NCBI RefSeq assembly: GCF_010725485.1
Contig: NZ_AP022598.1
Span: 3,596,001 to 3,660,000 of the forward strand
DNA from: Mycolicibacterium parafortuitum
GTDB taxonomy: Bacteria > Actinomycetota > Actinomycetes > Mycobacteriales > Mycobacteriaceae
Length of the DNA stretch: 64,000 nucleotides
Reading direction: 5' to 3'
Made by a program: the position numbers and the translations under genes. Below are positions 31,167 through 42,620 of this stretch, in pieces; within the stretch, counting starts at the first letter, position 1; every line of letters begins with the position of its first letter. The notes under the pieces were generated by a model, which searched no databases, was not told the DNA's origin, and saw only the letters and a program-made list of their open reading frames with translations.

Positions 31167-31238
31167 GGGCGCGTAGCTCAGTGGTAGAGCTCTGGTTTTA
31201 CACACCAGCGGTCGGCGGTTCGAAACCGTCCGCGCCCA
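31167..31238 (+). tRNA. tRNA-Val (anticodon UAC)
   Basis: A 72-nt cloverleaf with acceptor GGGCGCG pairing with CGCGCCC at 31231-31237, D arm GCTC..GAGC, anticodon stem CTGGT/ACCAG with loop TTTACAC (anticodon TAC), and T arm GGCGG-TTCGAAA-CCGTC. The discriminator base is A at 31238, followed by genomic CC. The 3' half (31197-31240) is repeated twice downstream, so this gene is the attachment site for integrated elements. Confidence 0.95.
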
Positions 31239-31240
31239 CC
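31197..31240 (+). repeat. attL of element 1 (3' half of tRNA-Val)
   Basis: A 44-bp segment from the anticodon loop to the end of the tRNA gene plus CC. It differs from the copies at 35852 and 42529 by one base: A at 31224 (T loop), where the other two have T. The integrated DNA therefore restores a complete tRNA. Confidence 0.9.
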
Positions 31241-31313
31241 GTCGAAAGTACCTGCTAGACAGTGCTTTTAATCAGTAAACGCAGACCGCGTGGACTACGA
31301 GAACAGCGCCCAA

Positions 31314-31349
31314 GTTGCCATTAGGTTGCCAACGGGGTCCGTGTTGCCA
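31314..31349 (+). promoter_or_regulatory. Three GTTGCCA direct repeats, probable integrase arm-type sites of element 1 (left)
   Basis: GTTGCCA occurs at 31314-31320, 31325-31331 and 31343-31349, about 75-110 bp inside attL. The same heptamer occurs twice near the right end (35727-35744). Spaced direct heptamers at both ends of a tyrosine-integrase element are the normal layout of arm-binding sites. Confidence 0.5.
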
Positions 31350-31404
31350 GCGCCACCTACACAACTCCGCCGCGTTTCGAAGCGGATGTGTCTGAGCCGG
31401 TCGA

Positions 31405-31410
31405 TATGCT
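31405..31410 (+). promoter_or_regulatory. Possible -10 box for the toxSAS-like pair
   Basis: TATGCT about 28 nt before the ATG at 31438, leaving a short leader that contains the ribosome site GGGAGG. Confidence 0.3.
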
Positions 31411-31437
31411 CACCTCTTCACTGTCGTCGGGAGGGTC

Positions 31438-32172
31438 ATGGCGATGCAGCCAGCCGATGTGCCGAGCGTCAGCGCGGTCAATAAGGCAGGTGACGCCCTG
31501 CGCGTACTCATCGGTAAGAGCGGTGCGCTGACATCCGAGGAAATGAACCGCGCAGTTCACGCCATCGACGTCCTCGTTGCATGGAGGGCTGCACACGCGC
31601 TGCCGCTGGCCACCGCCACCATGGGCCTGAAGTCCCGGGTGCAGACAGCGGGCTGTGCTGATGGCAGTCGGGTGTCGCAGCGTCTCAAACGCATTCCAAC
31701 GATTCTCAGCAAGCTGCACCGCGAGCCCAAGATGGAGCTCGGGCGAATGCATGACATCGGGGGATGCCGAGTGGTGCTCGCCGACCTGGCGCAGGTTTAC
31801 GAGGTGCTTGACCGATACCGGACTCGTCCTACCAGCGGCGGCATCAAGGTGCAGGACTACATAGAGAAGCCGAAACCCGACGGGTATCGCGGGGTGCACG
31901 TCATCGTGAAGTATCACGGCAGGCGGATCGAGGTGCAGCTCCGGACCCAGGTACAGCATGAATGGGCATTTACCGTGGAATCCGTCACTGCTCGATACGG
32001 GCTCGCCATCAAGACCGGCGGTGGTCCTCTACCAGTCAGGGAGTGGTTTCAAACGGTGTCTGAGGCGATGGCCGTGGAAGAGCACGGTGGGACCGTTGAT
32101 GATGACCTCTTGCGCCGGGTATCTACAATGAGGGAAGCTGCCCAACCATATCTGCGAGGAGAACGCCGATGA
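31438..32172 (+). CDS. RelA/SpoT synthetase-domain protein, toxSAS-like (p)ppGpp (or related) nucleotide pyrophosphokinase
   Basis: The 244-residue protein has only a SYNTH domain. Residues 79-113 carry the substrate face (S-Q-R-L-K-R..., then M-H-D-I-G-G-C-R-V-V with Asp106). Residues 139-154 hold an intact G-loop (Q-D-Y-I-E-K-P-K-P-D-G-Y-R-G-V-H), and 165-174 the E-V-Q-L-R-T-Q-V-Q-H motif. There is no HD hydrolase domain and no TGS/ACT region. All catalytic positions known from RelA appear present. Single-domain synthetases on prophages and islands (PhRel, FaRel, CapRel) are usually toxins that shut down growth on phage infection. The gene has a good ribosome site, and its stop overlaps the next ORF (ATGA), as in a toxin-antitoxin operon. 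An ordinary housekeeping small alarmone synthetase is the alternative. Confidence 0.8.
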   Translation: MAMQPADVPSVSAVNKAGDALRVLIGKSGALTSEEMNRAVHAIDVLVAWRAAHALPLATATMGLKSRVQTAGCADGSRVSQRLKRIPTILSKLHREPKMELGRMHDIGGCRVVLADLAQVYEVLDRYRTRPTSGGIKVQDYIEKPKPDGYRGVHVIVKYHGRRIEVQLRTQVQHEWAFTVESVTARYGLAIKTGGGPLPVREWFQTVSEAMAVEEHGGTVDDDLLRRVSTMREAAQPYLRGERR

Positions 32173-32429
32173 GTGCCACGCTCAAGCACTTCTTGCTGGT
32201 GTTCGACCATGACCGGGCCGAACTCAAGGACATGCGGGAATTCGGCACAGATACTAAGGCCGCGATGGCCGAGTACGCCCGCCTTGAGCGCGAGCACCTG
32301 AGCGAAAAGGGTGCCGACTCCATCGAGATCGTCCTTATTGGCTCGGACTCGCTGGACACTGTGAAGGTCACTCACGCCAATTACTTCGACGGAACCGTGG
32401 CCGTTTCGAAGTACTTCGCGGGCATCTGA
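32169..32429 (+). CDS. Small partner protein of the synthetase, putative antitoxin
   Basis: The 86-residue protein overlaps the toxin-like gene by 4 nt and has its own GAGGAG ribosome site. It begins with a hydrophobic strand and a helix (L-K-H-F-L-L-V-F-D-H-D-R-A-E-L), then an acidic helix (A-M-A-E-Y-A-R-L-E-R-E-H), then strand I-E-I-V-L-I-G-S-D-S-L-D-T-V and an aromatic end (A-N-Y-F-D-G). I recall similar small proteins beside RelA/SpoT-domain genes in actinobacteria, but know no experimentally named family. Antitoxin function is inferred from position only. Confidence 0.65.
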   Translation: MSATLKHFLLVFDHDRAELKDMREFGTDTKAAMAEYARLEREHLSEKGADSIEIVLIGSDSLDTVKVTHANYFDGTVAVSKYFAGI

Positions 32430-32445
32430 CCCGTCTTTGCTGGGG

Positions 32446-33954
32446 TTACCCGAATAGAGACGCCCCCACAGTTCTCAGCTCGTCGGCCTTCACGTCGGCA
32501 TAGATGCGCAGCGCCACCGCTGGGTCGTGGCCGTGCCAAGCCGCCACGATGTGCGGCGGGTGGCCCCGGTCGAGCATCAGGCTGACCCTGGTGTTGCGCA
32601 GGCCGTGCAGCCTGATCCGGCGCAGACCAGCCCGAGCACGCAACCGCTGGAACTCGTCGGTGTAGAACTCGGGACGCAGGGGCGTGCCATCCTCATGCAC
32701 CGCTACCAGCCGGTCGTCGGACCACCCGACGCCGAGCGCCAGGGCCTCGGCGCGCTGGCGTGTCTTGAGGGCGCGCAGCGCGGTGACCACGTCGGCGGGT
32801 AATGGCAGATCGCGGCGGCTGCGCTTGGATTTCGGCGCGCCCTCTACCGCCTGGCCGCCAACGGTGACCCTGCCACGCCGCACCGACAGCGTGCCGGTGT
32901 CCAGATCGACCGCACTCCAACGCAACCCGAGCACCTCGCTGCGCCTCATGCCGTACATCGACAGCAGCCAGCACGCGAATAGCCGGTGTTCGGGCACCGC
33001 TGCGCGGAACCGCTCGGCCTCGGCCAGCGTCCACGACTTGGCGGCAGGCTCGGTAGCTGTGGCGTCCTCGGCGGTCGCCAGGACGGCGTCGTGGTCGGCA
33101 TCCTTGGGCCGCTCGACAAGCGCGATCACGTTGCGCGGCAACACCCCCTGATCGACGTAGCTTTGCACCACCGCGCCGAAGGTCGTCAGGGTGGATCGGA
33201 TGGTCTGCGGGCTCAGCCCGCGTTTCTCGGCGGTAGCGGCGGTCTCGGGCTGCGCGGGGGCGTAGATGCCCCGCCGGAGCCGGGTGACCCGCCCGGCGGC
33301 GAGCAGGGCGGCGAGCGCCGAGTGCACGTCACCGGGCAGCGCGGCGGCCAGTTCGGCGGCAGGGATGCCTTCGGGGTGCTCGGAGACCAGCGCGACCACG
33401 CGACCGGCGAGCGAGTCGGCCCGGTAGTGCCGGTGGTCGGTGCGTGCTTCGGTCAGCATCCACTTGACCAGGGCGTCACCATCGGCCTTGGTAATTTGTT
33501 GCAGCTTCCGGGTGCCGAGGTAGCGCCGAACGGGTTTCAGGTCCATCCCGTAGCCGTAGACGGTGATCTCCCGAATTCCGCGACGACCGCTCAACCACTC
33601 GTCACACGCCTGGTCCACGGTGATGGCGGTGGGCCGGTTGTAGGTGCCCGCCGCGACCTCGGAGCTGATGCGGCGCAACTCCCGCTGTGCCTCCTTCTTG
33701 GCGCGAAAGGTGAACTTGCGCCGGTCGCGTGACCCGTCCGGCTTGTTGCCGAGATCGAGCTGGAACCAGTAGGTCACGGCACCGTTCTTCGCCGTGTGCG
33801 TGTTGATCGGCTCGGCGCGCCGCGTGCGCCTAGCGGGGTTCGGGTCGGTCTCGGCTGGGAGCAGGCGCGCAAGCGGTGGCGCCCACCCCTGAGCGCCGAT
33901 GTCATGGACGACCCGTACCCACCCGGTAACCCGTATGAGGGCATCGGGGTTCAT
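32446..33954 (-). CDS. Tyrosine-type integrase with a winged-helix-like insert (element 1)
   Basis: From the ATG at 33954 the protein is 502 residues. Homology with the broken integrase of element 2 begins at A-R-R-T-R-R-A-E-P (about residue 41), so the start could be later. It has an arm-binding AP2-like region (about 45-110) and a core-binding domain interrupted at about 179-240 by a winged-helix-like insert (S-L-A-G-R-V-V-A-L-V-S-E...R-L-R-R-G-I-Y). The catalytic domain follows, with Arg337 (G-M-R-R-S-E-V-L-G-L-R-W), His450/Arg453 (H-G-L-R-N-T), W-H-G-H and Tyr485. All catalytic residues are present, so element 1 may still be mobile. Its 3' end lies 17 bp from the small partner gene, convergent. 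Confidence 0.9.
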   Translation of the reverse strand: MNPDALIRVTGWVRVVHDIGAQGWAPPLARLLPAETDPNPARRTRRAEPINTHTAKNGAVTYWFQLDLGNKPDGSRDRRKFTFRAKKEAQRELRRISSEVAAGTYNRPTAITVDQACDEWLSGRRGIREITVYGYGMDLKPVRRYLGTRKLQQITKADGDALVKWMLTEARTDHRHYRADSLAGRVVALVSEHPEGIPAAELAAALPGDVHSALAALLAAGRVTRLRRGIYAPAQPETAATAEKRGLSPQTIRSTLTTFGAVVQSYVDQGVLPRNVIALVERPKDADHDAVLATAEDATATEPAAKSWTLAEAERFRAAVPEHRLFACWLLSMYGMRRSEVLGLRWSAVDLDTGTLSVRRGRVTVGGQAVEGAPKSKRSRRDLPLPADVVTALRALKTRQRAEALALGVGWSDDRLVAVHEDGTPLRPEFYTDEFQRLRARAGLRRIRLHGLRNTRVSLMLDRGHPPHIVAAWHGHDPAVALRIYADVKADELRTVGASLFG

Positions 33955-34002
33955 GGCTGCGACGGCTGCTGCCGACCCCCGGACGGCGGGGGTGCGGGGT
34001 GA
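33902..34002 (+). CDS. Tiny Cys-motif ORF (about 33 residues)
   Basis: ATG at 33902 reads M-D-D-P-Y-P-P-G-N-P-Y-E-G-I-G and ends with G-C-D-G-C-C. It overlaps antisense the first codons of the integrase and overlaps the next ORF by 4 nt (GTGA). The C-D-G-C-C motif recurs in that next ORF, which supports both being real. Function unknown, and it could still be chance. Confidence 0.35.
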
Positions 34003-34304
34003 CCGGCTGCACCGCCGCCCATACCGTCGGCGCACCGGGCGGCGGGGAGCTGGCCCGAGTAGGCCGGGCAAAGCTGCGCGCCGATCTCACCGCCCCCACC
34101 GTGCCCAGCGTGCAGGACGGGTGTGACTGTGACGGATGTTGCCCACCACCGCTGACCGACATCGAGGCGCAACATGCCCTGCGCCATGTGAGCAGCGCTG
34201 ACGCCGTGGCCTACGCCCGGGGTGAGTTGTCGCTGTCCCGGTTGCGATGGTACGAGGGCTGCGAGGAGTGGGTTCCGACCTTCACCGAGGCGGCGGCACG
34301 GTGA
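33999..34304 (+). CDS. Small ORF with C-D-G-C-C motif, unknown function
   Basis: A GTG start gives 101 residues. The second half is protein-like: D-G-C-D-C-D-G-C-C-P-P-P-L-T-D-I-E-A-Q-H-A-L-R-H-V, then a helix A-V-A-Y-A-R-G-E-L and an aromatic end L-R-W-Y-E-G-C-E-E-W-V-P. Metal or partner binding through the Cys cluster is possible. It may be an excisionase-like control protein, since such small genes usually sit beside the integrase, but no HTH is evident. The stop is 8 bp from the end of the convergent 400-residue gene. Confidence 0.45.
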   Translation: MTGCTAAHTVGAPGGGELARVGRAKLRADLTAPTVPSVQDGCDCDGCCPPPLTDIEAQHALRHVSSADAVAYARGELSLSRLRWYEGCEEWVPTFTEAAAR

Positions 34305-34312
34305 GCGCGGGG

Positions 34313-35515
34313 TCAGCCCCGTTGAAACCCACGCGGCGTGATCGGCAGATAGGACCGCCGCCCAGTTGAAACAAGCTGACGGTCGCGCTCGCGAGCGGGC
34401 AGCGGCACCGGACGAATGACCATCGCGGGAGCGGCTGCCTGGGGCGACCACGGTCGAGGGATGCGGTAGCCGACGATGCGGTGGTCGGTGCCGTCAACGG
34501 TGCCGTCCGGCTTCACCTTGATCAGTTCGTGGGTTGCGCGTTTGAGCAGGTTCATCGCCTGCATGGTGGTGCCCCACACGGCAATCTCGACCGCCGCCTT
34601 GCTCACGTAGGTGATGGACCCGCTCTCGCCGAGGTAGCGACGGCGCGCTACGTCCCACAACGAGTCGAGCGCCTTAGTGATCAGCACCGACACAGCCAGT
34701 TCGCGGCCGGGGTTCGAGTCCTCCATCGTGAGCCACCAGTGCGCCTCGTTCTTCGCCGCGTCGGGGTGCCCCTTCCTGTGTAGGTAGACGTGGACCGGCC
34801 CCTCATGGATCGTGACCGGCTCGCCGTCCATCGGCTGCCACGACACCTTGGCCTCGTCGTCATCGACCGCGACAGCGCTCACCCCGTGCTTGACGGCGTT
34901 GTAGACGAACGCATCCCCAAGAGCCCGATTCGCGCAGTCGACCAGCAACATAGCGAGCGCGTCGATGGCGTCCTCGAATTCGTCGTCGGTGAGTTGGATC
35001 ACCGCGTCGACGCGGCTTTTCCCACCCAGAAACACTTTGGCGATCTGCTCACGGTCGAACCCCGTGTCGAGCGCGGCATCGAGCTTCGCCTTGTACTCGC
35101 GGAAGTCGGTCGAGGCCGACATGCCGAGCCACGGGCACTCGGGGTGCTCGGTGTGCGCGAAGAACATCCGCAGCAGCGTCTCGGAGGCGTGATTGGCGAT
35201 GGTCACCGCCTCCATGCGGATGTACCGCTGTCGAGCCTCCGAGGTCGGCGGCGACATCGCGCCGAGGAACGCGGCTCCGATGGTTCGGTCAGTTCCGTAC
35301 AGCGGGGCGAGCTGGTCGTCGCTGCACGCCATCAGCGACAGCGACTCGATGCGCATCTTGATGAACTCAGCGGGATCAGCGGTGTAGAAGACGGCGTTCA
35401 GCTCAGGGTATTGGCCTGGATCGAGTCGCCGCCCCTTCGGATCGTCCTGCTCCCACGGCTTCTGCCCACCTCGGTACCTGCCCATGAGCCGGAGTCTAGG
35501 AATATCCTCCGACAA
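34313..35515 (-). CDS. Cargo protein of unknown function (element 1)
   Basis: The 400-residue soluble protein is not recognised. Visible features: a basic start (L-R-L-M-G-R-Y-R-G-G-Q-K-P-W); a helical region 95-150 with S-E-T-L-L-R-M-F-F-A-H-T-E-H-P-E-C-P-W-L (112-130); a second helical block 180-212 ending in F-V-Y-N-A-V-K-H-G; then a strand-rich middle and a positively charged C-terminus (R-P-V-P-L-P-A-R-E-R-D-R). The Y-N-x-x-K-H-G segment faintly recalls HEPN-like helical domains, but I see no R-x4-6-H motif. It sits in the same right-hand slot and orientation as the OLD nuclease of element 2. It is a full-length, undamaged ORF, probably a defence or accessory gene (inference). Confidence 0.6.
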   Translation of the reverse strand: MSEDIPRLRLMGRYRGGQKPWEQDDPKGRRLDPGQYPELNAVFYTADPAEFIKMRIESLSLMACSDDQLAPLYGTDRTIGAAFLGAMSPPTSEARQRYIRMEAVTIANHASETLLRMFFAHTEHPECPWLGMSASTDFREYKAKLDAALDTGFDREQIAKVFLGGKSRVDAVIQLTDDEFEDAIDALAMLLVDCANRALGDAFVYNAVKHGVSAVAVDDDEAKVSWQPMDGEPVTIHEGPVHVYLHRKGHPDAAKNEAHWWLTMEDSNPGRELAVSVLITKALDSLWDVARRRYLGESGSITYVSKAAVEIAVWGTTMQAMNLLKRATHELIKVKPDGTVDGTDHRIVGYRIPRPWSPQAAAPAMVIRPVPLPARERDRQLVSTGRRSYLPITPRGFQRG

Positions 35516-35851
35516 GTCGCCGTGCCCCCGTGGCTCACTCCGTTAGCGAAGCGGCGACCGTTGCGCCGAGATTCCAGCACGCCTCGGTGTTGGCCTTGTT
35601 TGGCTTGCCCGCCACCACGACGGTGTCGACGGTGCGGACCCCTCCCGAGCCCGGCGGGGATGCCGTTGATAGCGCGCTGAGCGCCCTCGCGGCAACCAAT
35701 GTTTTGAGCGCGGACGACGCTCCCGTGTTGCCACCAAGTTGCCAAGACACGCCAAAACGGGGTGGACGCAGTAGACGCGGCGAACACCGTGACCGCCATT
35801 GACCTGCACATATCCGACAGCAACGGACGCGGTTCCACACGTTCCGATCCC
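35516..35851. other. Non-coding right end of element 1
   Basis: About 336 bp between the cargo gene and the attachment copy. Short ORFs here on both strands have no ribosome site or protein-like composition. The stretch contains the promoter side of the 400-residue gene and the GTTGCCA arm repeats. Nothing else recognised. Confidence 0.6.
35727..35744 (+). promoter_or_regulatory. Two GTTGCCA repeats, probable integrase arm-type sites of element 1 (right)
   Basis: GTTGCCA at 35727-35733 and 35738-35744, about 110 bp from the att core at 35852. The second is followed by AGACACG; a related ACTTGCCAAGACGCG lies at the same distance before the third att copy (42403-42417). Confidence 0.5.
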
Positions 35852-35895
35852 TTTACACACCAGCGGTCGGCGGTTCGATACCGTCCGCGCCCACC
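35852..35895 (+). repeat. Middle att copy: attR of element 1 and attL of element 2
   Basis: A 44-bp copy of the tRNA-Val 3' half, identical to the copy at 42529-42572 and one base different from the tRNA itself. It has no 5' tRNA half, so it is an attachment scar, not a tRNA gene. Confidence 0.9.
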
Positions 35896-35967
35896 GAAGA
35901 TGATGCAGGTCAGAGGCATTGAGGTGCGCAAGTGCCGTCGTTGGTGAAACCGCCGACGTGCCAAGAA

Positions 35968-36330
35968 CTAGCCAAGCGATTTCGGCGCATCGGCAAAGAG
36001 AACCGATCCGGCAGAAGCCAGCGAACTATGGTGCGGATGCGCGTAGACCCGCAGCGTCATCGCCGGATCGTGGCCGAGCCACTTAGCCGCAGTGGCGACG
36101 TCGGTCCCGCTGCCGAGCATGACGGTCGCGACGGTGTGCCGAACGTCGTGTAGTCGGATCACTGGCACGCCAGCGGCTTTCGCTAGCCGGGAGAACTCTC
36201 CCGAGTATGTCTCGGGCCGGATCGGTGAACCATCGGCGTTGACGGCGACCAGGCCGCTATCGGGCCACCCGCTGCCGAGGGCGAGGCGGTCAGCGGCCTG
36301 TGTGGCCTTGAGCGCGCGGAGCGCCGTCAC
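35968..36330 (-). pseudogene. Integrase C-terminal fragment (element 2), cut off by the IS
   Basis: This reads T-A-L-R-A-L-K-A-T-Q... to the end, with the catalytic H-D-V-R-H-T, W-L-G-H and Tyr (L-R-V-Y-A-H) of a tyrosine recombinase. It aligns closely with the C-terminus of the element 1 integrase from about residue 391. The upstream part of the gene lies beyond the IS at 38702-39741. Joining across the 4-bp duplication restores the frame exactly (P-A-D-V-V then T-A-L-R-A-L). The stop is 73 bp from the att copy. Confidence 0.9.
36327..36330. repeat. Target-site duplication TCAC, left
   Basis: TCAC at 36327-36330 is repeated at 38702-38705 directly flanking the IS; removing the IS and one copy rebuilds the integrase reading frame. 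Confidence 0.8.
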
Positions 36331-36380
36331 TGACCGCGCTCACTGAATTTCCCCACTTACGCTCATCGAAATTCCCCACC
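36331..36380 (+). repeat. Left terminal inverted repeat of the IS21-family element
   Basis: The 50 bp contain two tandem copies of a GCTCA-N2-GAAWTTCCCCAC unit (GAATTTCCCCAC then GAAATTCCCCAC, 21 bp apart). Multiple terminal repeats for transposase binding are a hallmark of IS21 elements. Confidence 0.75.
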
Positions 36381-36467
36381 CGTGTGGCTCCGCCGAGAAG
36401 GGCGGGCCTCCCTCGAAGCTGCTGGTGTCTGACGCCAGTTGCTCCATCGAAGGAGGCCCGCTTTCTC

Positions 36468-37786
36468 ATGCTCACATGGGAGGACGACTTGGAAGTACAT
36501 GCCCTACGCAAACGTGGTTGGTCGATCTCGGCGATCGCCCGCCACACCGGCTTCGATCGCAAAACGGTCCGCAAGTACCTCGACGGTGACGGGAGCCGGG
36601 GTCCGGCTCGCCGCGGCCGGACCCGTTCGAGCCGTTCGTCGACTACGTCACCGCCCGCCTGGTCGAGGACCCGCATCTATGGGCCCGCACCCTCTACGAC
36701 GAGCTCGAGGATCTCGGGTTCGCGCTGTCGTATCAAAGCCTGACCCGCAACATCCGAGCCCGCAATCTGCGCCCGGTGTGTGAGGCGTGCCGCTCGGTCA
36801 CCCAGCGTCCGAACGCGGTGATCCCGCACGAGCCCGGTGATGAAACCCAATGGGATTGGCTGGATTTGCCCGATCCGCCCGAGTTCTGGGGGTGGGGCAA
36901 GACCGCGCACCTGCTGGTGGGCTCGCTGGCTCATTCGGCCAAATGGCGAGGGTCGTTGTCGCCCTCGCAGGACCAACCGCATCTGGTCTCCGGCCTTGAC
37001 CGCGTGACCCGCGGCTGGCACAAGGACCGACCCCGGCAGCGGCCGGGTGACCGCCTCGTTCGCCGGGGTGGCCAAGCACTACGGGTTTCGGTGGCGATCT
37101 GCCCGCCGCGGCGCGGCAACCGCAAAGGTGTGGTGGAAAAGGCCAACCACACTGCCGCGCAACGCTGGTGGCGCACTCTGGCCGACGACATGACCGTCGA
37201 GGCGGCCCAAGCCAGCCTGGACCGCTTCGCCCAAGTGCGTGGCGATACCCGGCTACGGGCCACCGCCGACGGCCGGTCCTCGGTCGCCGCGGTGGCCAAG
37301 ACCGAACCGCTGGCTCCGGTGCCGGCGGTGCCGTATCCGATGATCGTTTCCGAGACCCGCACCGCGTCGCGCCAAGCGTTGGTGTCCTACCGCGGCAACC
37401 GCTACTCGGTGCCCCCGGAACTGGCCGCCGCCCAGGTGGTGGTGTCACATCCAGTCGGCGGCGAGTTCTGCGATATCGCCACCGCCAGCGGGATCGTGAT
37501 CGCCCGGCATCGGATGGCCGCTGACGGGCTCGGAGTGATGGTGCGTGACAGCGGCCATGTCATCGCGTTGGACAGCGCCGCGATGGCCACCTCCATGACC
37601 GGGCGCCCGCACCGCCGCAAGGAACGCATCCCACCCGGGCCGGCAGCTAAAGCCGCTGCCGCGCAACTGCTTCAGCAGCACGACACCGCTAAAGGTATTG
37701 ACCAATCCCGCACTCCGTCCACCGATTCCACCGTGATCGATCTGTCCGCCTACGAGCGGGCCGCCCAGAAAAGGACCATTCAGTGA
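36468..37786 (+). pseudogene. istA: istA transposase, frameshifted and internally deleted
   Basis: The start M-L-T-W-E-D-D-L-E-V-H-A-L is followed by a helix-turn-helix (W-S-I-S-A-I-A-R-H-T-G-F-D-R-K-T-V-R). At about 36596 one base is missing: the next frame continues E-P-G-S-G-S-P-R-P-D-P-F-E-P-F. The DDE domain starts at D-E-T-Q-W-D-W-L-D. At about 37010-37040 the family's G-V-x-R-x-W-x-F-D-R-M-A-T-V stretch seems lost, with a frame change, removing the presumed second catalytic Asp. A base is missing again at about 37083 before S-V-A-I-C-P-P-R-R-G-N-R-K-G. The C-terminal part is intact to 37786. It would normally be about 500 residues. Confidence 0.85.
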
Positions 37787-38639
37787 CCCCTACCGGCCGC
37801 ACCCCGAAGACCACCACCACGACCATCGCCGAGGAATCGCCCTCAGCAGCGGCGAGCCGCTACCAGCAGCTGCGCTCGCACCTGGCCGAACTCAAACTGG
37901 CTGCCGCCGCCGAAGCCCTCCCCGCGGTCTTGGACCAGGCCAGCGCCGAAGGGCTCTCGCTCACCGCCGCCCTGGAAGGCTGCTGGCCGTCGAAGTGGAA
38001 GCCTCCACCGCCCGCCGGCTCGCCGGGAGACTGCGGTTCGCCTGCCTGCCCACCCCGGCCACCCTCGACGACTTCAACGTCGATGCCGCCGCCGGGATCG
38101 ACCGCAACCTCATCGACGAGCTGGGCACCTGCCGCTACCTCGAATCGGCGACCAACATCCTGCTCATCGGCCCACCAGGCACCGGCAAAACCCACTTATC
38201 CGTGGGATTGGCCAGGGCCGCCGCCTATGCCGGCTACCGCACCTACTTCACCACCGCCGCGGATCTCGCGGCCCGCTGCCATCGCGCCGCGATCGAAGGC
38301 CGCTGGGCTACCACTATGCGTTTCTACGCCGGGCCGACGCTGCTCGTAATCGACGAACTCGGCTATCTACCATTACCGGCAGAGGCGGCCTCGGCACTGT
38401 TTCAGGTTGTCTCCCAACGCTATCTGAAAACCAGCATCGTCATCACCACCAACCGTGGAGTGGGCGCCTGGGGCGAAATCCTCGGAGACACCACCGTCGC
38501 AGCCGCCATGCTCGACCGCTTACTGCACCGCTCGATAGTCATCAACCTCGACGGCGAGTCCTACCGCCTGCGTGACCACCAAGCCGCCGCCGAAACCCTG
38601 CGCCGAACCACCACCGGCAACCGCCAACAACTACACTGA
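37783..38639 (+). pseudogene. istB: istB ATPase of IS21 family, one frameshift
   Basis: GTG at 37783 overlaps the istA stop. The N-terminal part (Y-Q-Q-L-R-S-H-L-A-E-L-K-L-A-A-A-A-E-A-L) runs to L-E-G at about 37980, where one C is missing. The next frame continues V-E-A-S-T-A-R-R-L-A-G-R-L-R to the end, with Walker A G-P-P-G-T-G-K-T-H-L, Walker B L-L-V-I-D-E-L-G-Y-L-P and sensor I-V-I-T-T-N-R. IstB normally helps IstA choose targets. A shortened product from an ATG at 37995 would keep the ATPase core. Confidence 0.85.
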
Positions 38640-38651
38640 TCGCTGCTCACA

Positions 38652-38701
38652 GGTGAGGAATTTCGGCGAGCACACCTGAGGACTTCCGATGAGCGCGATC
38701 A
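38652..38701 (-). repeat. Right terminal inverted repeat of the IS21-family element
   Basis: Read on the minus strand it starts TGATCGCGCTCA (11 of 12 identical to the left end) and ends CGAAATTCCTCACC, aligned without gaps to the left 50 bp. Confidence 0.75.
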
Positions 38702-38705
38702 TCAC
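38702..38705. repeat. Target-site duplication TCAC, right
   Basis: Matches the left copy at 36327-36330. Confidence 0.8.
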
Positions 38706-39741
38706 GACGTCGGCCGGCATCGATAAGACGCGCCGGGAGCGGTGTGACTTCGGATCGCCGGTCATCGTGCCTTCGCCCTGGACGACGACGCGGCCCTGAG
38801 CGATGGCCACGGTGCCGGCGTCGAGGTCGACGTCGGTCCACCGCAACCCAAGCACCTCAGAACGGCGCAGCCCGGCCAAGGTGAGCAGCCAGCAGGCGTG
38901 CAGCCGGTCGGCTCGGGAATGCTCGCGGAACGTGGCTGCCTCCGCGGGTGTCCAGGTCGACATCTCGCGGTGCTCGATCTTCGGCCGGTCGACCAGACGG
39001 GCGACGTTGCGCACGACCAAGCCGCGCTTGGCGGCGTCGTCGAGTGCCGACGACAGAACGACCAGCATCGTGACGACGGTTCGCGCGCTGACGCCGCCGG
39101 CCACCTTAGGTCGTGGCGGGTCGGCAGGCTGCGCGGCCACATAGAGTCCGCGCCGAGGGCGCCGGACCTCGCCGGAGGCCACCAGTCGCGCCACTGCTTT
39201 CTCTCCAGCGTTGCCGAACTCCGCGTACATCTCGCTGTAGCTGGCACCTCCAGGACTCGCCCGCAGCCAGGTCAACACCTCGGCCGAGCGCTTACCCCGC
39301 TTGTCGCGCTGGGCGACGGGCTCACCTCTCAGGCGCAGCGTTACCAGATCGTGCAGCAGACCCGTCGACGTGGCGCGTTTCAAGGTGCTGCAGTGCAACG
39401 CCGCCTAGATGTTCGATCACCGGCTTGAGTGCGTGGCGGTACCCGGTCAGCGTCACAGGCCGGATCTTGCGGCGGCTGTCGAGCCAGTCAGTCAGGAACT
39501 CGGCCACCGTGACCTTGTGCCGACGTACGTATGTCCCCGAGGCGACCTCGGTGGTGATGCGCCGGTACTCGCGTTGCGCCTCGGCTTTGGTGCGGTAGGT
39601 GAAACGCTGCCGATCTCGGCTGCCATCGGGACGGGTGCCGGTGTCGACCACAAACCCGTAGCTGGCTGTCCCGTTCTTGGCGGTGTGCTTGGTGATCGGC
39701 TCAGCCCGTCGTGTGCGCTTCGCTTGCAGATCGGCGGTCAT
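38702..39741 (-). pseudogene. Integrase N-terminal and middle part (element 2), frameshifted and truncated by the IS
   Basis: The start M-T-A-D-L-Q-A-K-R-T-R-R-A-E-P-I overlaps the upstream small ORF (ATGA). The arm-binding region runs to L-Q-H-L-E-T-R-H-V-D-G, then the frame is lost at about 39375-39390; the next frame continues L-L-H-D-L-V-T-L-R-L-R-G. A winged-helix-like insert follows (S-A-E-V-L-T-W-L-R-A...R-P-R-R-G-L-Y), as in element 1, then the core-binding end and the catalytic Arg (G-L-R-R-S-E-V-L-G-L-R-W). It stops at P-A-D-V-V where the IS enters. Two independent lesions show the gene is dead. Confidence 0.9.
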
Positions 39742-40013
39742 CGGTCGTTCTCCTGGTGGCGGCGGGCGGTGAGTTCGTCTCGTTGCTTGGGCGACGGTCG
39801 CCGAGGGATCTCGATCCCGTCGAGCAGGCCCTCGTCACGGGCCTTGCAGATCATGCGGTCAAGCGTGGCTGTTGACACGCGAAGCTGTGCGGCGACGGTA
39901 GGCCGCACCGGCAAGCCGTCCATGATCGCGTTCTCGATCAGGTCGGGCAGCCTGACCAGTCGATCATCCGCGTTCTCAGGCTGTGCGAGCGTGTCGCGTT
40001 GATCGTCGGGCAT
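39738..40013 (-). CDS. Small HTH-like regulator or excisionase next to the integrase (element 2)
   Basis: From the ATG at 40013 (GGAG eight nt upstream) the protein is 91 residues. The middle reads as a helix-turn-helix (V-R-P-T-V-A-A-Q-L-R-V-S-T-A-T-L-D-R-M-I), with a Lys/Arg-rich tail (R-R-P-S-P-K-Q-R-D-E-L-T-A-R-R). It overlaps the integrase start by 4 nt, the usual place for an excisionase or recombination control gene. An earlier ATG at 40076 is possible. No counterpart is found at this position in element 1. Confidence 0.6.
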   Translation of the reverse strand: MPDDQRDTLAQPENADDRLVRLPDLIENAIMDGLPVRPTVAAQLRVSTATLDRMICKARDEGLLDGIEIPRRPSPKQRDELTARRHQENDR

Positions 40014-40133
40014 CGCGAAGGCTCCACCGCCGCGCGGACAGCTTCGCCCACGATGACACTCGCTATCGCCGCGCAATGGTGGCCGCTGCAGGACCTGCCG
40101 CCGCGGCCATCTTCCACCACAGCGATCGAGTAA

Positions 40134-40397
40134 CGCTGCGCCAGTGCAAGCGACCGCGAGGTGCTGCGCCTGGCGTCACTGCACAGCTACTCGACGTCAG
40201 ACGAACAGCTCTCGTCGGCGCTGCCCGTCGTGCGACGTTGTTGGGGCAGCATCGGCACGCTGGCCGCGAAGATGATGCGCGGCCAGGAGATCGGCCACGA
40301 CGATGTCCTCGCGGCCCTCGGCGTCACCGATGGCGGTGGTCCGGGCAGCTTCCAGCTCTCGCTGATCGCCAGCGGCGCCGTATCACCCCACCCCTGA
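40134..40397 (+). CDS. Small ORF of unknown function (possible gene remnant)
   Basis: Open from just after a TAA at 40131; the first likely start is GTG at 40161. The peptide is protein-like (E-V-L-R-L-A-S-L-H-S-Y-S-T-S-D-E-Q then helical, ending G-V-T-D-G-G-G-P-G-S-F-Q-L-S). No ribosome site is seen, and the absence of a clear 5' part suggests a remnant of a longer gene. Confidence 0.35.
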   Translation, partial: RCASASDREVLRLASLHSYSTSDEQLSSALPVVRRCWGSIGTLAAKMMRGQEIGHDDVLAALGVTDGGGPGSFQLSLIASGAVSPHP

Positions 40398-40451
40398 CCC
40401 GCGGCGCGGCAGGGAAGGTCAAACGGTCACAGCGACAGGACTTTTCGCGGA

Positions 40452-42197
40452 CTACGTCGGAGCATCGGACTCCGTGCGGATTCCAGTGGCGGCAATCAAC
40501 CGCTTTGCCTGTTCTACTGCTTCCGCTGACTTGTGGGCGTTGTGCTCAAACGCGACTGGTAGGAATCCCGACCCCTTCGACACACTAACGGTCGTGAGAA
40601 AGTTCTCGAGCACGCCGACGCGCACTGTAACTATCCCGAGCGCGTCGAGCTTTGCGAGCAGGCTTGTCGCCGAATCCTTCGCGTCCTTAAACGCCCGATC
40701 GCCTGACTCTTTCAGCCGTGCCCACGTTGAGTCTGGCAATTTTGCTGCCGCTTTGATCCTTTTCGCCAGTTCTTCTGAAAGATCGCCCGCCGCAGACTCG
40801 CTGAATATCTCGTCGATTGACTGCTTAACTTCGGCCACAGTCGGCGGCTTCGGAGCTGCACGAAACTGGTTCGTCGCCTTCTTGTAGAGCTCCTCAAAAT
40901 CATCCCAGTTGCCGCCGTGCGCCTCTACCACCCTTTTCAGGACCTTGTTGCTGTCGAGAATGTCGAGATCGGGGCATGTCACAACCCGTATGCCGAGTTT
41001 GCGTAACCGGTCCACGATGCCGGCCATGTTCGTCTTCCCGTTGCTACCGAGGAACATCACATTGTGGGCAGGAGGTTGGGGCGTTAGGGCCTCGAGGTAA
41101 GCGTCGATCGCGGCGGCGTAGAAGTGAGAATCGCGGTCATTCTCGGTAACAATTACAGCAGAATGGAACAGGCCATCTAGAGCGTTGCCATATCTCAAAG
41201 TGACGTCGTTCCAGAGCGATTCGATGTCTTCCTCGCTCAACAACGTCGCGGCAGCTGAATCTCCGGTCCGCGTGAGATGAACTATCGTCACGCGGGCTTT
41301 GCTCTCCACCAGACCCTGCAATAGGTTTTTGTCGTGCGTCGCAAGGATGGTCTGTGATCGGTTCTCGGCTGCAATCCTGCCGATCTCTCTACCCATGACT
41401 CGCGCCTGCGGCGGATGCAAGAACGCCTCCGGCTCGTCCACGAGTGCGACAGGGTGTGTGTTGATTTCCAACGGAATCAAAAGTCCAAGCGCCGACTTCA
41501 TGCCGTCGCCCTGGCTGTCGAGGGTCGGCAGACCACTCACTGCTATTGCATACTCCCGAGTAATTTCGTCGACTTTCGGGGCCTCTAATCCCGGATCGCC
41601 AAGGCGATAGCCGACATTAGCGCTTATGGAGTCAAAGTGAAGGCTGACTCCGAACAACCTGCGTGCGAGCTCGGTGATCCTGTCGCGCTTGGAATGATCA
41701 GTAAACAAAATCTGATTCGGGTGTGTCGGCTCGTCATCGAGCGAACCGAGGCGGCCGGCGTGGTGTACCGCGTTCATTCGCTGGTCGAGGTTCAGCTGAT
41801 TGACGAACCAGCCGGTCAGGTTGCCCGCGCCGGGCCCCTGCGTCGGCATGTTCCGCGCTGTCGTGATGCGCTCAGCGAGCCCATTCTTGACGACATTCTC
41901 GAAAGTCGGGAACTCCCTAATTCTCGCATTCTCGCGAAGCCACGCTTCCAGATCCTCCGGGCTTCCACTCCATGGAGACTTAATTTCGGTGAGGATTCGC
42001 GGTGATCCCGCCTGTTGTGTTGCGCCGGAGATGAACGCTTGCCAAAGCTGCGACAGGAGAGTCGACTTGCCAGCGTTGTTCGCCCCGACGATCGCGATCA
42101 CGCCGCCCGCGCCAGGAGTGGGCAGCATTTCTCCGTCACCGATGCGGAGACCTCGCAGCGAGAACTCAAACCCCGTTGAAGTGACCTCCGCCGTCAC
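40452..42197 (-). CDS. OLD-family ATP-dependent nuclease (AAA ATPase + TOPRIM), probable anti-phage defence
   Basis: The GTG at 42197, with AGGAG seven nt upstream, gives 581 residues. The frame is open further upstream to 42383, but that part is non-conserved. Walker A G-A-N-N-A-G-K-S-T lies at 38-46, and Walker B V-A-L-V-D-E-P-E-A-F-L-H-P-P at about 250-262, of the SMC/RecF-like ABC ATPase type. A TOPRIM domain follows, with Glu352 (V-I-V-T-E-N-D-R-D) and D-L-D at 410-412. This is the layout of OLD (overcoming lysogenization defect) nucleases. No UvrD-like helicase gene follows, so it is a stand-alone (class 1-type) OLD and not Gabija. GC is visibly lower than in the flanking genes, consistent with transfer. 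It is the main cargo of element 2. Confidence 0.85.
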   Translation of the reverse strand: MTAEVTSTGFEFSLRGLRIGDGEMLPTPGAGGVIAIVGANNAGKSTLLSQLWQAFISGATQQAGSPRILTEIKSPWSGSPEDLEAWLRENARIREFPTFENVVKNGLAERITTARNMPTQGPGAGNLTGWFVNQLNLDQRMNAVHHAGRLGSLDDEPTHPNQILFTDHSKRDRITELARRLFGVSLHFDSISANVGYRLGDPGLEAPKVDEITREYAIAVSGLPTLDSQGDGMKSALGLLIPLEINTHPVALVDEPEAFLHPPQARVMGREIGRIAAENRSQTILATHDKNLLQGLVESKARVTIVHLTRTGDSAAATLLSEEDIESLWNDVTLRYGNALDGLFHSAVIVTENDRDSHFYAAAIDAYLEALTPQPPAHNVMFLGSNGKTNMAGIVDRLRKLGIRVVTCPDLDILDSNKVLKRVVEAHGGNWDDFEELYKKATNQFRAAPKPPTVAEVKQSIDEIFSESAAGDLSEELAKRIKAAAKLPDSTWARLKESGDRAFKDAKDSATSLLAKLDALGIVTVRVGVLENFLTTVSVSKGSGFLPVAFEHNAHKSAEAVEQAKRLIAATGIRTESDAPT

Positions 42198-42528
42198 CGC
42201 GCAGCTCCTCGCAGGCAGAATGTCGGATTGGGCACGCGAACGATTGAGAGCGTGCTCGCGGTGCCTGACTGGTCGTCGTCCCGGTGCATCTTCGCAAAGT
42301 ACCTTGAGCGGCGGTTTCCGTCTCACGCCGAGCTGCCGCGCAATCAACACACGCCACCTGCCCATGGCAAACACGTTCGACAAAACCCCCGGCTTGCCGG
42401 GAACTTGCCAAGACGCGCGTCAACAACCGGTCACGCAAATGTGCAGGTTGGACATTCTGCATCGTCTGAACTGCACGGATCTGCACAGTGGTGCACAGCC
42501 CGATACGCACAGAACACGTGTTCGGGCA
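42198..42528. other. Non-coding right end of element 2 with arm-like site and palindrome
   Basis: About 330 bp between the OLD gene and the last att copy. I see no convincing gene. It contains ACTTGCCAAGACGCG at 42403-42417, similar to the arm repeat of element 1 and at nearly the same distance from the core. A cluster of TGCAC words follows at about 42472-42496, and then a 12-bp palindrome at 42512-42523. Confidence 0.55.
42512..42523. repeat. 12-bp perfect palindrome GAACACGTGTTC beside the att core
   Basis: Ends 5 bp before the last att copy (42529). A degenerate counterpart (GGTTCCACACGTTCC) precedes the middle att copy. It could be a core-adjacent binding site for integrase or a regulator. 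Confidence 0.45.
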
Positions 42529-42572
42529 TTTACACACCAGCGGTCGGCGGTTCGATACCGTCCGCGCCCACC
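42529..42572 (+). repeat. Right-most att copy (attR of element 2)
   Basis: Identical over 44 bp to 35852-35895; marks the return to chromosomal DNA. Confidence 0.9.
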
Positions 42573-42620
42573 ATCGAAAATCAGTTGCCGCAGCGGAATC
42601 CGCGCGGCAAGGTGACCGCC

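Follow-up and report, generated by a model that had tools for sequence, protein, structure and literature searches.

The genome of Mycolicibacterium parafortuitum contains a stretch of 64,000 nucleotides (the window; NZ_AP022598.1, positions 3,596,001 to 3,660,000 of the forward strand) in which the 3′ half of a tRNA-Val(UAC) gene occurs three times and encloses two short integrase-carrying islands, which raises the question of what these islands are and how they came to be so small. The analysis presented here indicates that they are very probably two tandem deletion derivatives, each bounded by attachment (att) sites, of a mycobacterial family of satellite-like elements that integrates at tRNA-Val(UAC). 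This tRNA was the only one called in the window by ARAGORN, and a repeat search located the att copies as follows.

31,167–31,240, forward strand: tRNA-Val(UAC), at which integration takes place and whose 3′ half forms attL of island 1
31,197–31,240, forward strand: att copy 1, within the tRNA
35,852–35,895, forward strand: att copy 2, attR of island 1 and attL of island 2
42,529–42,572, forward strand: att copy 3, attR of island 2, adjoining the chromosomal flank

The direct repeats started at 31,197, 35,852 and 42,529, a spacing of 4655 bp and 6677 bp, and the islands measured from att to att were 4.66 kb and 6.68 kb. This agrees with an initial annotation of the window, which had described three copies of a 44-bp stretch of the tRNA 3′ half and two islands of about 4.7 kb and 6.7 kb between them. 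The 44-bp core contained one mismatch, as the T-loop read GAAACC in the tRNA and GATACC in both distal copies. When the whole genome (6,044,196 bp) was scanned with up to three mismatches allowed, exactly three copies of the core and no copy of a reversed control pattern were found; the triplet is therefore not due to chance. A close relative, G027, has an empty site in which the tRNA is followed directly by the right flank of the window (95.1% identity over 987 bp); its PutP is 97% identical to that of the window. In addition, the island end at 35,742–35,895 matched the end of another element, L039 (81.8%), and the island end at 42,495–42,579 matched that of element L078 (85.2%). The att copies are thus real element boundaries, as had been proposed initially. 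A duplication of the tRNA without any mobility does have a parallel in the relative G091, in which a second, almost complete tRNA-Val(UAC) lies 1.3 kb behind the first with a 55-nt exact match. However, copies 2 and 3 of the window are 3′ halves only, each beside integrase-type ends, and the empty site refutes this explanation, so that duplication or chance repetition is left with practically no probability.

The T-loop also carries a trace of integration. GATACC is the native T-loop: the tRNA of G027 reads GATACC, and 98 of 141 tRNA tails (the window included) were one sequence in three offsets. As the window tRNA has GAAACC where G027 and the distal copies have GATACC, the tRNA end therefore appears to have been replaced by incoming DNA on integration. 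Element L039 (genome G019) parallels the window, with GAAACC in the tRNA and GATACC in the distal copy.

The contents of island 1 were as follows.

31,241–35,851: island 1, a probable reduced satellite in which a left end and a right end remain and the core is missing (collinearity with elements of Mycobacterium sp. D16Q13 and AT1)
31,438–32,172, forward strand: Rel, RelA/SpoT-domain protein, toxSAS/CapRel-like (PF04607; PADLOC PDC-S33, 6e-61; PDB 7ztb/9erv, 1.8e-18)
32,169–32,429, forward strand: S86, an 86-amino-acid (aa) partner overlapping the end of Rel, matching the C-terminal part of the PDC-S33 model
32,446–33,954, reverse strand: integrase 1, tyrosine recombinase with a predicted inserted winged helix (PF00589); the open reading frame (ORF) is open to 34,071 and the start codon is uncertain
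33,855–33,998: junction region, the passage from left end to right end; homology to other integrases stops at 33,829–33,854 and S101 begins at 33,999
33,999–34,304, forward strand: S101, small gene (tblastn to L150, L134 and L159; 56% to the AT1 element L298)
34,313–35,515, reverse strand: D400, a 390–400-aa protein and the last gene before attR (126 homologues; AlphaFold2 pLDDT, the predicted local distance difference test, 86)

The D16Q13 element (L303) has the order tRNA, Rel, S86, integrase, a helix-turn-helix (HTH) gene and an excisionase (Xis) gene, followed further on by the large terminase gene (TerL) and attR. Window positions 31,403–33,829 were collinear with this element at 76.1% nucleotide identity, the amino acid identities being 86% for Rel, 95% for S86 and 78% for the integrase. 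The right end of the AT1 element (L298) reads TerL, S101, D400 and attR, and window positions 34,143–35,514 were collinear with it at 74.4% nucleotide identity (74% amino acid identity for D400). S101 stands just after TerL in L159 as well as in L298, and just after a TerL remnant in L150. Between the end of integrase homology (33,854) and the start of S101 (33,999) there are 144 bp in the window compared with approximately 11 kb in AT1; thus island 1 consists of two ends without the core. It is conceivable, though we consider it the less probable course, that island 1 arose from a single deletion across two tandem satellites, a D16Q13-like one by the tRNA and an AT1- or M. duvalii-like one behind it. 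The left half is closest to D16Q13, which has no D400, while D400 is 96% identical to that of M. duvalii, and tandem integration does occur at the window site. However, the same mosaic would also result if satellites had simply recombined with each other, whether before integration or after it, and a tandem of full elements was seen at none of 140 corresponding sites of the genus.

Five full, att-bounded elements with this integrase family and the same tRNA were found in five genomes (L158, L159, L168, L298 and L303), ranging from 14.9 kb (L303) to 15.9 kb (L298). An att-bounded length of about 15 kb is also the size criterion for phage-inducible chromosomal islands (PICIs). All five encoded an integrase, an HTH protein, an Xis-like protein and TerL, and four of them also had a recognisable primase or AAA_25 gene, L303 being the exception. 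Profile searches gave a recurrent order, with the integrase and HTH genes on one strand. Divergent from these, an Xis-like HTH_17 gene comes first, in many cases followed by a primase or AAA_25 gene; several conserved genes come next, then in many cases a serine recombinase, and finally TerL. PHROG (2e-81) and Pfam both supported TerL, the Xis-like gene was recognised from its HTH_17 match, and PHROG primase/helicase families pointed to the replication gene. No capsid, portal or tail family was detected by PHROG at E 0.01 in 30 of the 47 called ORFs of L158 (12/14), L159 (10/19) and L168 (8/14), a scan that passed over integrases, homologues of scanned genes and very short or antisense ORFs, as well as L298 and L303, and that remote structural homologues could escape. 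With att ends, a packaging gene and no recognised structural gene, the approximately 15-kb relatives appear from their sequences to be satellite-like. An IMG/VR viral contig, L258 (IMGVR_UViG_2687453194_000001), carries TerL, primase and HTH genes 99% identical to those of L159 (genome G034), so at least one family member has been filed as a virus. This match, together with terminase and replication genes of phage type, would also suit a reading of the 15-kb relatives as decaying prophages and of the islands as prophage remnants. Against it, five elements share their size, core order, att ends and lack of a recognised structural gene, the last within the 30 of 47 ORFs scanned in three of them, and decay would hardly reproduce such a form; we regard a prophage origin as quite improbable.

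Island 2 is more heavily damaged, and its contents were as follows.

35,896–42,528: island 2, a probable reduced satellite including an insertion sequence (IS) (att repeats; tblastn of remnants)
35,968–36,330, reverse strand: integrase 2, C-terminal piece (51% to integrase 1)
36,384–38,639 (approximate ends), forward strand: IS21-like insertion, recognised by its helper IstB
36,776–37,786, forward strand: IS21-like transposase ORF, named by position only
37,995–38,639, forward strand: IstB helper (NF038214, 4e-67)
38,631–39,398, reverse strand: integrase 2, middle piece with the predicted winged-helix insert (AbiEi_4 5.8e-6, above the cut-off; 41% to integrase 1); its final residues extend into the end of the IS
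39,322–39,741, reverse strand: integrase 2, N-terminal piece in a different frame (54% to integrase 1)
39,738–40,076, reverse strand: HTH112, HTH-like protein overlapping integrase 2 (by eye; tblastn to satellite relatives)
40,161–40,397, forward strand: fragment of a conserved gene found ahead of TerL in intact relatives (tblastn to L158, L159, L168, gL178 and others)
40,452–42,383, reverse strand: OLD-like ATPase, candidate defence cargo (AAA_21 2e-12; PADLOC AriA/Old 2e-15)

Integrase 2 is broken in three by a frame change near 39.32–39.40 kb and by the IS21-like insertion. The initial annotation had given each island one related tyrosine integrase; the two do belong to the same family, as the identities above show, but the second is in pieces. 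Immediately after the HTH gene comes the pre-TerL fragment, and after this the OLD-like gene. HTH112 had no Pfam match, and by tblastn it showed 41–59% identity to L039, L078, L168, gL178, gL232 and others. The earlier statement that the islands hold no phage or replication genes has to be modified accordingly, since remnants are present (S101, HTH112 and the pre-TerL fragment); beyond these, neither island contains replication or packaging genes of its own.

Reduced forms were also found elsewhere. In L150 (6.0 kb), a TerL remnant of 110 aa stands ahead of S101 and D400; L039 (9.1 kb) has a shortened TerL, gL194 (6.9 kb) encodes an integrase, an HTH protein, a pre-TerL fragment and TerL, and L078 (8.7 kb) and gL232 (6.0 kb) are reduced and have no TerL. 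That these forms keep different core parts suggests that deletions happened repeatedly and independently. Several compact elements of 2.9–6.9 kb, bounded by att sites, were present at tRNA-Val and tRNA-Pro. One 3.7-kb element at tRNA-Pro(GGG) in Gordonia soli encodes a 541-aa DUF5677 protein (L219, 9927–11,552 bp) beside a truncated integrase.

The islands had initially been taken for minimal satellites; collinear as they are with parts of approximately 15-kb terminase-encoding elements, they look reduced rather than minimal by origin. Small elements of integrase, att sites and cargo might nevertheless spread in that form in their own right, with a full satellite or a phage mobilising them in trans. 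Integrase 1 is open and conserved, with a ratio of nonsynonymous to synonymous change (dN/dS) of 0.19 against D16Q13, a rough value because synonymous change is near saturation and most of which may predate the deletion. Short forms do recur, though three of the compact elements (L045, L112 and L116) show no integrase of the family. However, the short forms hold different fragments of the same core (L150, the window, gL194), as separate deletions would leave them, and an identical short element was not seen in two species, no dedicated search having been made. We judge an independent life as minimal satellites unlikely.

If the islands are deletion derivatives, their history may be pictured as follows. 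The integrase would recombine attP with the tRNA 3′ half and restore the tRNA. The simplest order would place island 2 first and island 1 afterwards at the re-formed tRNA, which is in keeping with the greater damage to island 2; insertion of island 2 at attR of island 1 is a possible alternative order. Internal deletions would then have removed the replication and packaging core and left the ends, the integrase and the cargo. As island 1 retains both att sites and an integrase frame that is open, it could perhaps still be excised if Xis were supplied in trans, while island 2 presumably cannot drive itself. The retained Rel-S86 and OLD-like genes would probably act against phages. Tandem accretion at one tRNA, with integrases of one family, is supported as first suggested.

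The site was compared among 147 sampled genomes of the same genus. An ahpE match was found in 143 of them and 140 sites were fetched, three relatives with ahpE on very short contigs (G003, G125 and G147) being left out; at least 4 kb of downstream sequence was available for 132 of the 140, and the stretch read was at most approximately 19 kb. tRNA-Val(UAC) followed ahpE in all 140 stretches. A window-type integrase was present at 18 sites, always facing the tRNA, with integrase fragments in two more. At 12 sites there was an att repeat (matching at 40 or more of 46 positions), seven with an integrase and five without (L045, L080, L112, L116 and L173), and 11 of the 18 integrase-bearing sites showed no right boundary. 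Where putP was the neighbour, the distance from the tRNA end to putP was 1.0 kb in G027, 0.06 kb in G101, 4.4 kb in G137, 5.9 kb in G103, 6.2 kb in G068 (with an integrase) and approximately 18.1 kb in G113, compared with 12.3 kb in the window. In the comparison of the ahpE to EamA/putP interval that had been proposed as a check, an empty site was present in G027, an integrase of the family in 18 relatives and a tandem in none of 140. A search for further loci returned 316, from which 80 named genome loci were kept; 64 of these were analysed after 16 distant ones (L240 and L243–L257) had been dropped. Two of 39 viral loci were added to give 66 further loci, some from the same genomes as the first sample. 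A convergent tRNA lay within 7 kb in 55 of the 66, namely tRNA-Val(UAC) in 35, tRNA-Pro(GGG) in 14, tRNA-Ala(GGC) in three, tRNA-Val(GAC) in two and tRNA-Thr(CGT) in one. In Mycobacterium uberis (L241), part of an integrase was located approximately 0.9 kb from tRNA-Val, together with an att-like copy that has degenerated (37 of 46).

Several observations weigh against reading the islands as deletion derivatives of a mobile satellite-like family. A second attR was found in none of the 140 relatives within the stretch read, and a tandem was seen in the window only; given the 18 integrase-bearing sites, the hot spot claimed initially is therefore genus-wide, and tandems at it are rare. A TerL of the family type was not found in the window's own genome by a search that had no positive control, and accordingly no source of TerL in trans is known there. 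Island 1 shows no alignment to D16Q13 over its first 160 bp behind the tRNA, and of these the first 29 bp match a different type of element (L158/L068), so the history of island 1 is a mosaic one. The gene order of the family is not universal, with TerL placed earlier in L121, gL181 and gL183, and genes were called by a simple script, so that some may have been mis-called. Finally, no helper, excision or packaging has been observed.

The integrases themselves distinguish the family. Approximately 60 extra residues between the core-binding and catalytic parts were found in 22 integrases of relatives and in both window integrases, in a comparison that left out two or three of L030, L031 and L032. 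The insert was lacking in three more distant integrases of the genus (L005, L033 and L034) and in those of Mycobacteriophages Dori and Sbash and Rhodococcus phage REQ2, which are also of the tyrosine type, 400–401 aa long and approximately 36% identical. At E 0.01, the insert of 11 out of 18 integrases of the family matched the Pfam family AbiEi_4. An AlphaFold2 model of integrase 1, moderate overall (pLDDT 73; pTM, the predicted template modelling score, 0.42), showed helix-helix-helix-strand-strand at residues 182–233, which is the order of a winged helix. The integrases are thus predicted to carry a winged helix between the core-binding and catalytic parts, and we would guess that it might serve DNA binding for self-regulation or arm-site choice. 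Among the 66 further loci, the insert was present in all 46 integrase ORFs of at least 440 aa, a length cut that itself favours the insert. The 20 shorter ORFs included one with the insert (L223, 417 aa), two partial ORFs that also carry it (L230 and L235) and three of 384–407 aa and 40–44% identity without it (L233, L236 and L237); the other 14 were only 17–249 aa and too short to judge. No description of a winged-helix-insert integrase was found in the open-licence literature. The insert and the list of targets (tRNA-Val, -Pro, -Ala and -Thr) offer markers by which the family can be found. The integrase family also occurs in a second group of elements, which has a same-strand Xis gene and few or none of the other markers (L088, L100, L104, gL185, gL215 and others; 11.4–13.6 kb where bounded), and profile searches revealed neither an HTH112-type gene nor TerL in them.

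PICIs (PMC10654092) share with the full relatives an integrase, an excisionase/HTH gene, a primase/helicase-type gene, a terminase, tRNA integration and cargo; the window islands lack this PICI core. The same source states that candidate mycobacterial PICIs (Abad et al. 2023) were defined by an integrase and a major capsid gene, and that PICIs in mycobacteria had been found earlier by SatelliteFinder. The capsid gene separates these candidates, and capsid-forming PICIs (cfPICIs), from the family described here, as none was found in the scanned ORFs of L158, L159 and L168; capsid-less members may be among the earlier SatelliteFinder PICIs. Phage-inducible chromosomal minimalist islands (PICMIs) of Vibrionaceae (PMC10803314) are very small, have no capsid-remodelling genes and protect the host from other phages, and the window islands are likewise small. 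PICMIs are located next to fis, and their three core proteins serve excision and replication. Unlike them, the window islands show no replication gene and no Xis, and their site is the tRNA-Val after ahpE. A capsid-less, terminase-bearing satellite family of mycobacteria was not found described in the open-licence literature.

A small tandem island is tied to a large and traceable mycobacterial family of satellite-like elements, and a route by which a satellite turns into an island of defence genes becomes open to test. Were phages to help the full elements, interference of these elements with phages could have consequences for mycobacterial phage therapy. More speculatively, and with the odds against it in our own estimate, Mycobacteriales might harbour a widespread, undescribed family of capsid-less, terminase-encoding, tRNA-aimed satellites with winged-helix integrases that repeatedly sheds its core to give mini-satellites of integrase, att sites and antiviral cargo; moved in trans, these would fill hot spots with defence genes at almost no cost, and Rel-S86 would be a two-gene CapRel with its sensor in trans.

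Rel is a 244-aa protein whose closest solved relatives are 7ztb and 9erv, and equivalents of R79, R116 and Y155 were present in the alignment to these structures, the residues being counted by hand. In PADLOC, Rel covered positions 7–220 of the 349 in the PDC-S33 model and S86 covered 264–331; because they match successive parts of this model, Rel and S86 together resemble that candidate divided into two genes. PMC9712102, on CapRel, names R79, R116 and Y155, prints 7ZTB once and describes the toxSYNTH domain that Rel shares, with the equivalent residues. CapRel, as described there, has a fused C-terminal antitoxin, whereas Rel is without it and has the separate 86-aa gene instead, which is not known to be homologous to the pseudo-ZFD. 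Rel was found in six of the 147 relatives, with an S86-like ORF downstream in five of the six. Against D16Q13, dN/dS was 0.023 for S86 and 0.068 for Rel, with the same roughness as for integrase 1. Rel-S86 is a compact pair with which to ask whether a separate partner can control a CapRel-like enzyme.

The OLD-like protein of island 2 has a clear ATPase (AAA_21), in common with OLD, AriA and GajA; its match to an OLD-like TOPRIM was weak (0.0034, below the Pfam cut-off) and the best PDB match was 6p74 (E 0.0011). It is distant from these proteins, and no partner gene was recognised beside it. On the strength of family matches, a defensive role of Rel-S86 and the OLD-like protein is plausible.

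D400 was found at 12 places in 11 of the 147 relatives. TerL lay within 1.5 kb at two places clearly, in M. duvalii and G127, and AT1 is a third clear case. A weak TerL trace at the G087 locus (E 4e-5) was not borne out by a 16-kb stretch, and no TerL was found within 1.5 kb at the other nine places, where D400 was mostly 39–53% identical. At the M. duvalii locus (L327, genome G085), where D400 is next to TerL, a window-type integrase was not found in the 19.9 kb read. The AlphaFold2 model of D400 gave no clear PDB match. Judging by its closest relatives, D400 is probably an end gene of the satellite rather than defence cargo as such; its distant homologues are located elsewhere, most of them away from TerL.

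At E 1e-5, the 114 cargo proteins compared, from 21 bounded elements, gave matches to 153 PADLOC models, against 27 for 114 length-matched genes from 83 element-free sites; as the models overlap strongly, this difference is no more than suggestive. Two IS genes of L185 had been removed from the cargo proteins, as had, before that, five ORFs antisense to core genes. The full satellite L168 carries at its right end a dCMP-deaminase-like gene (13,569–14,666 bp; PHROG 2e-15) that might encode a nucleotide-depletion defence.

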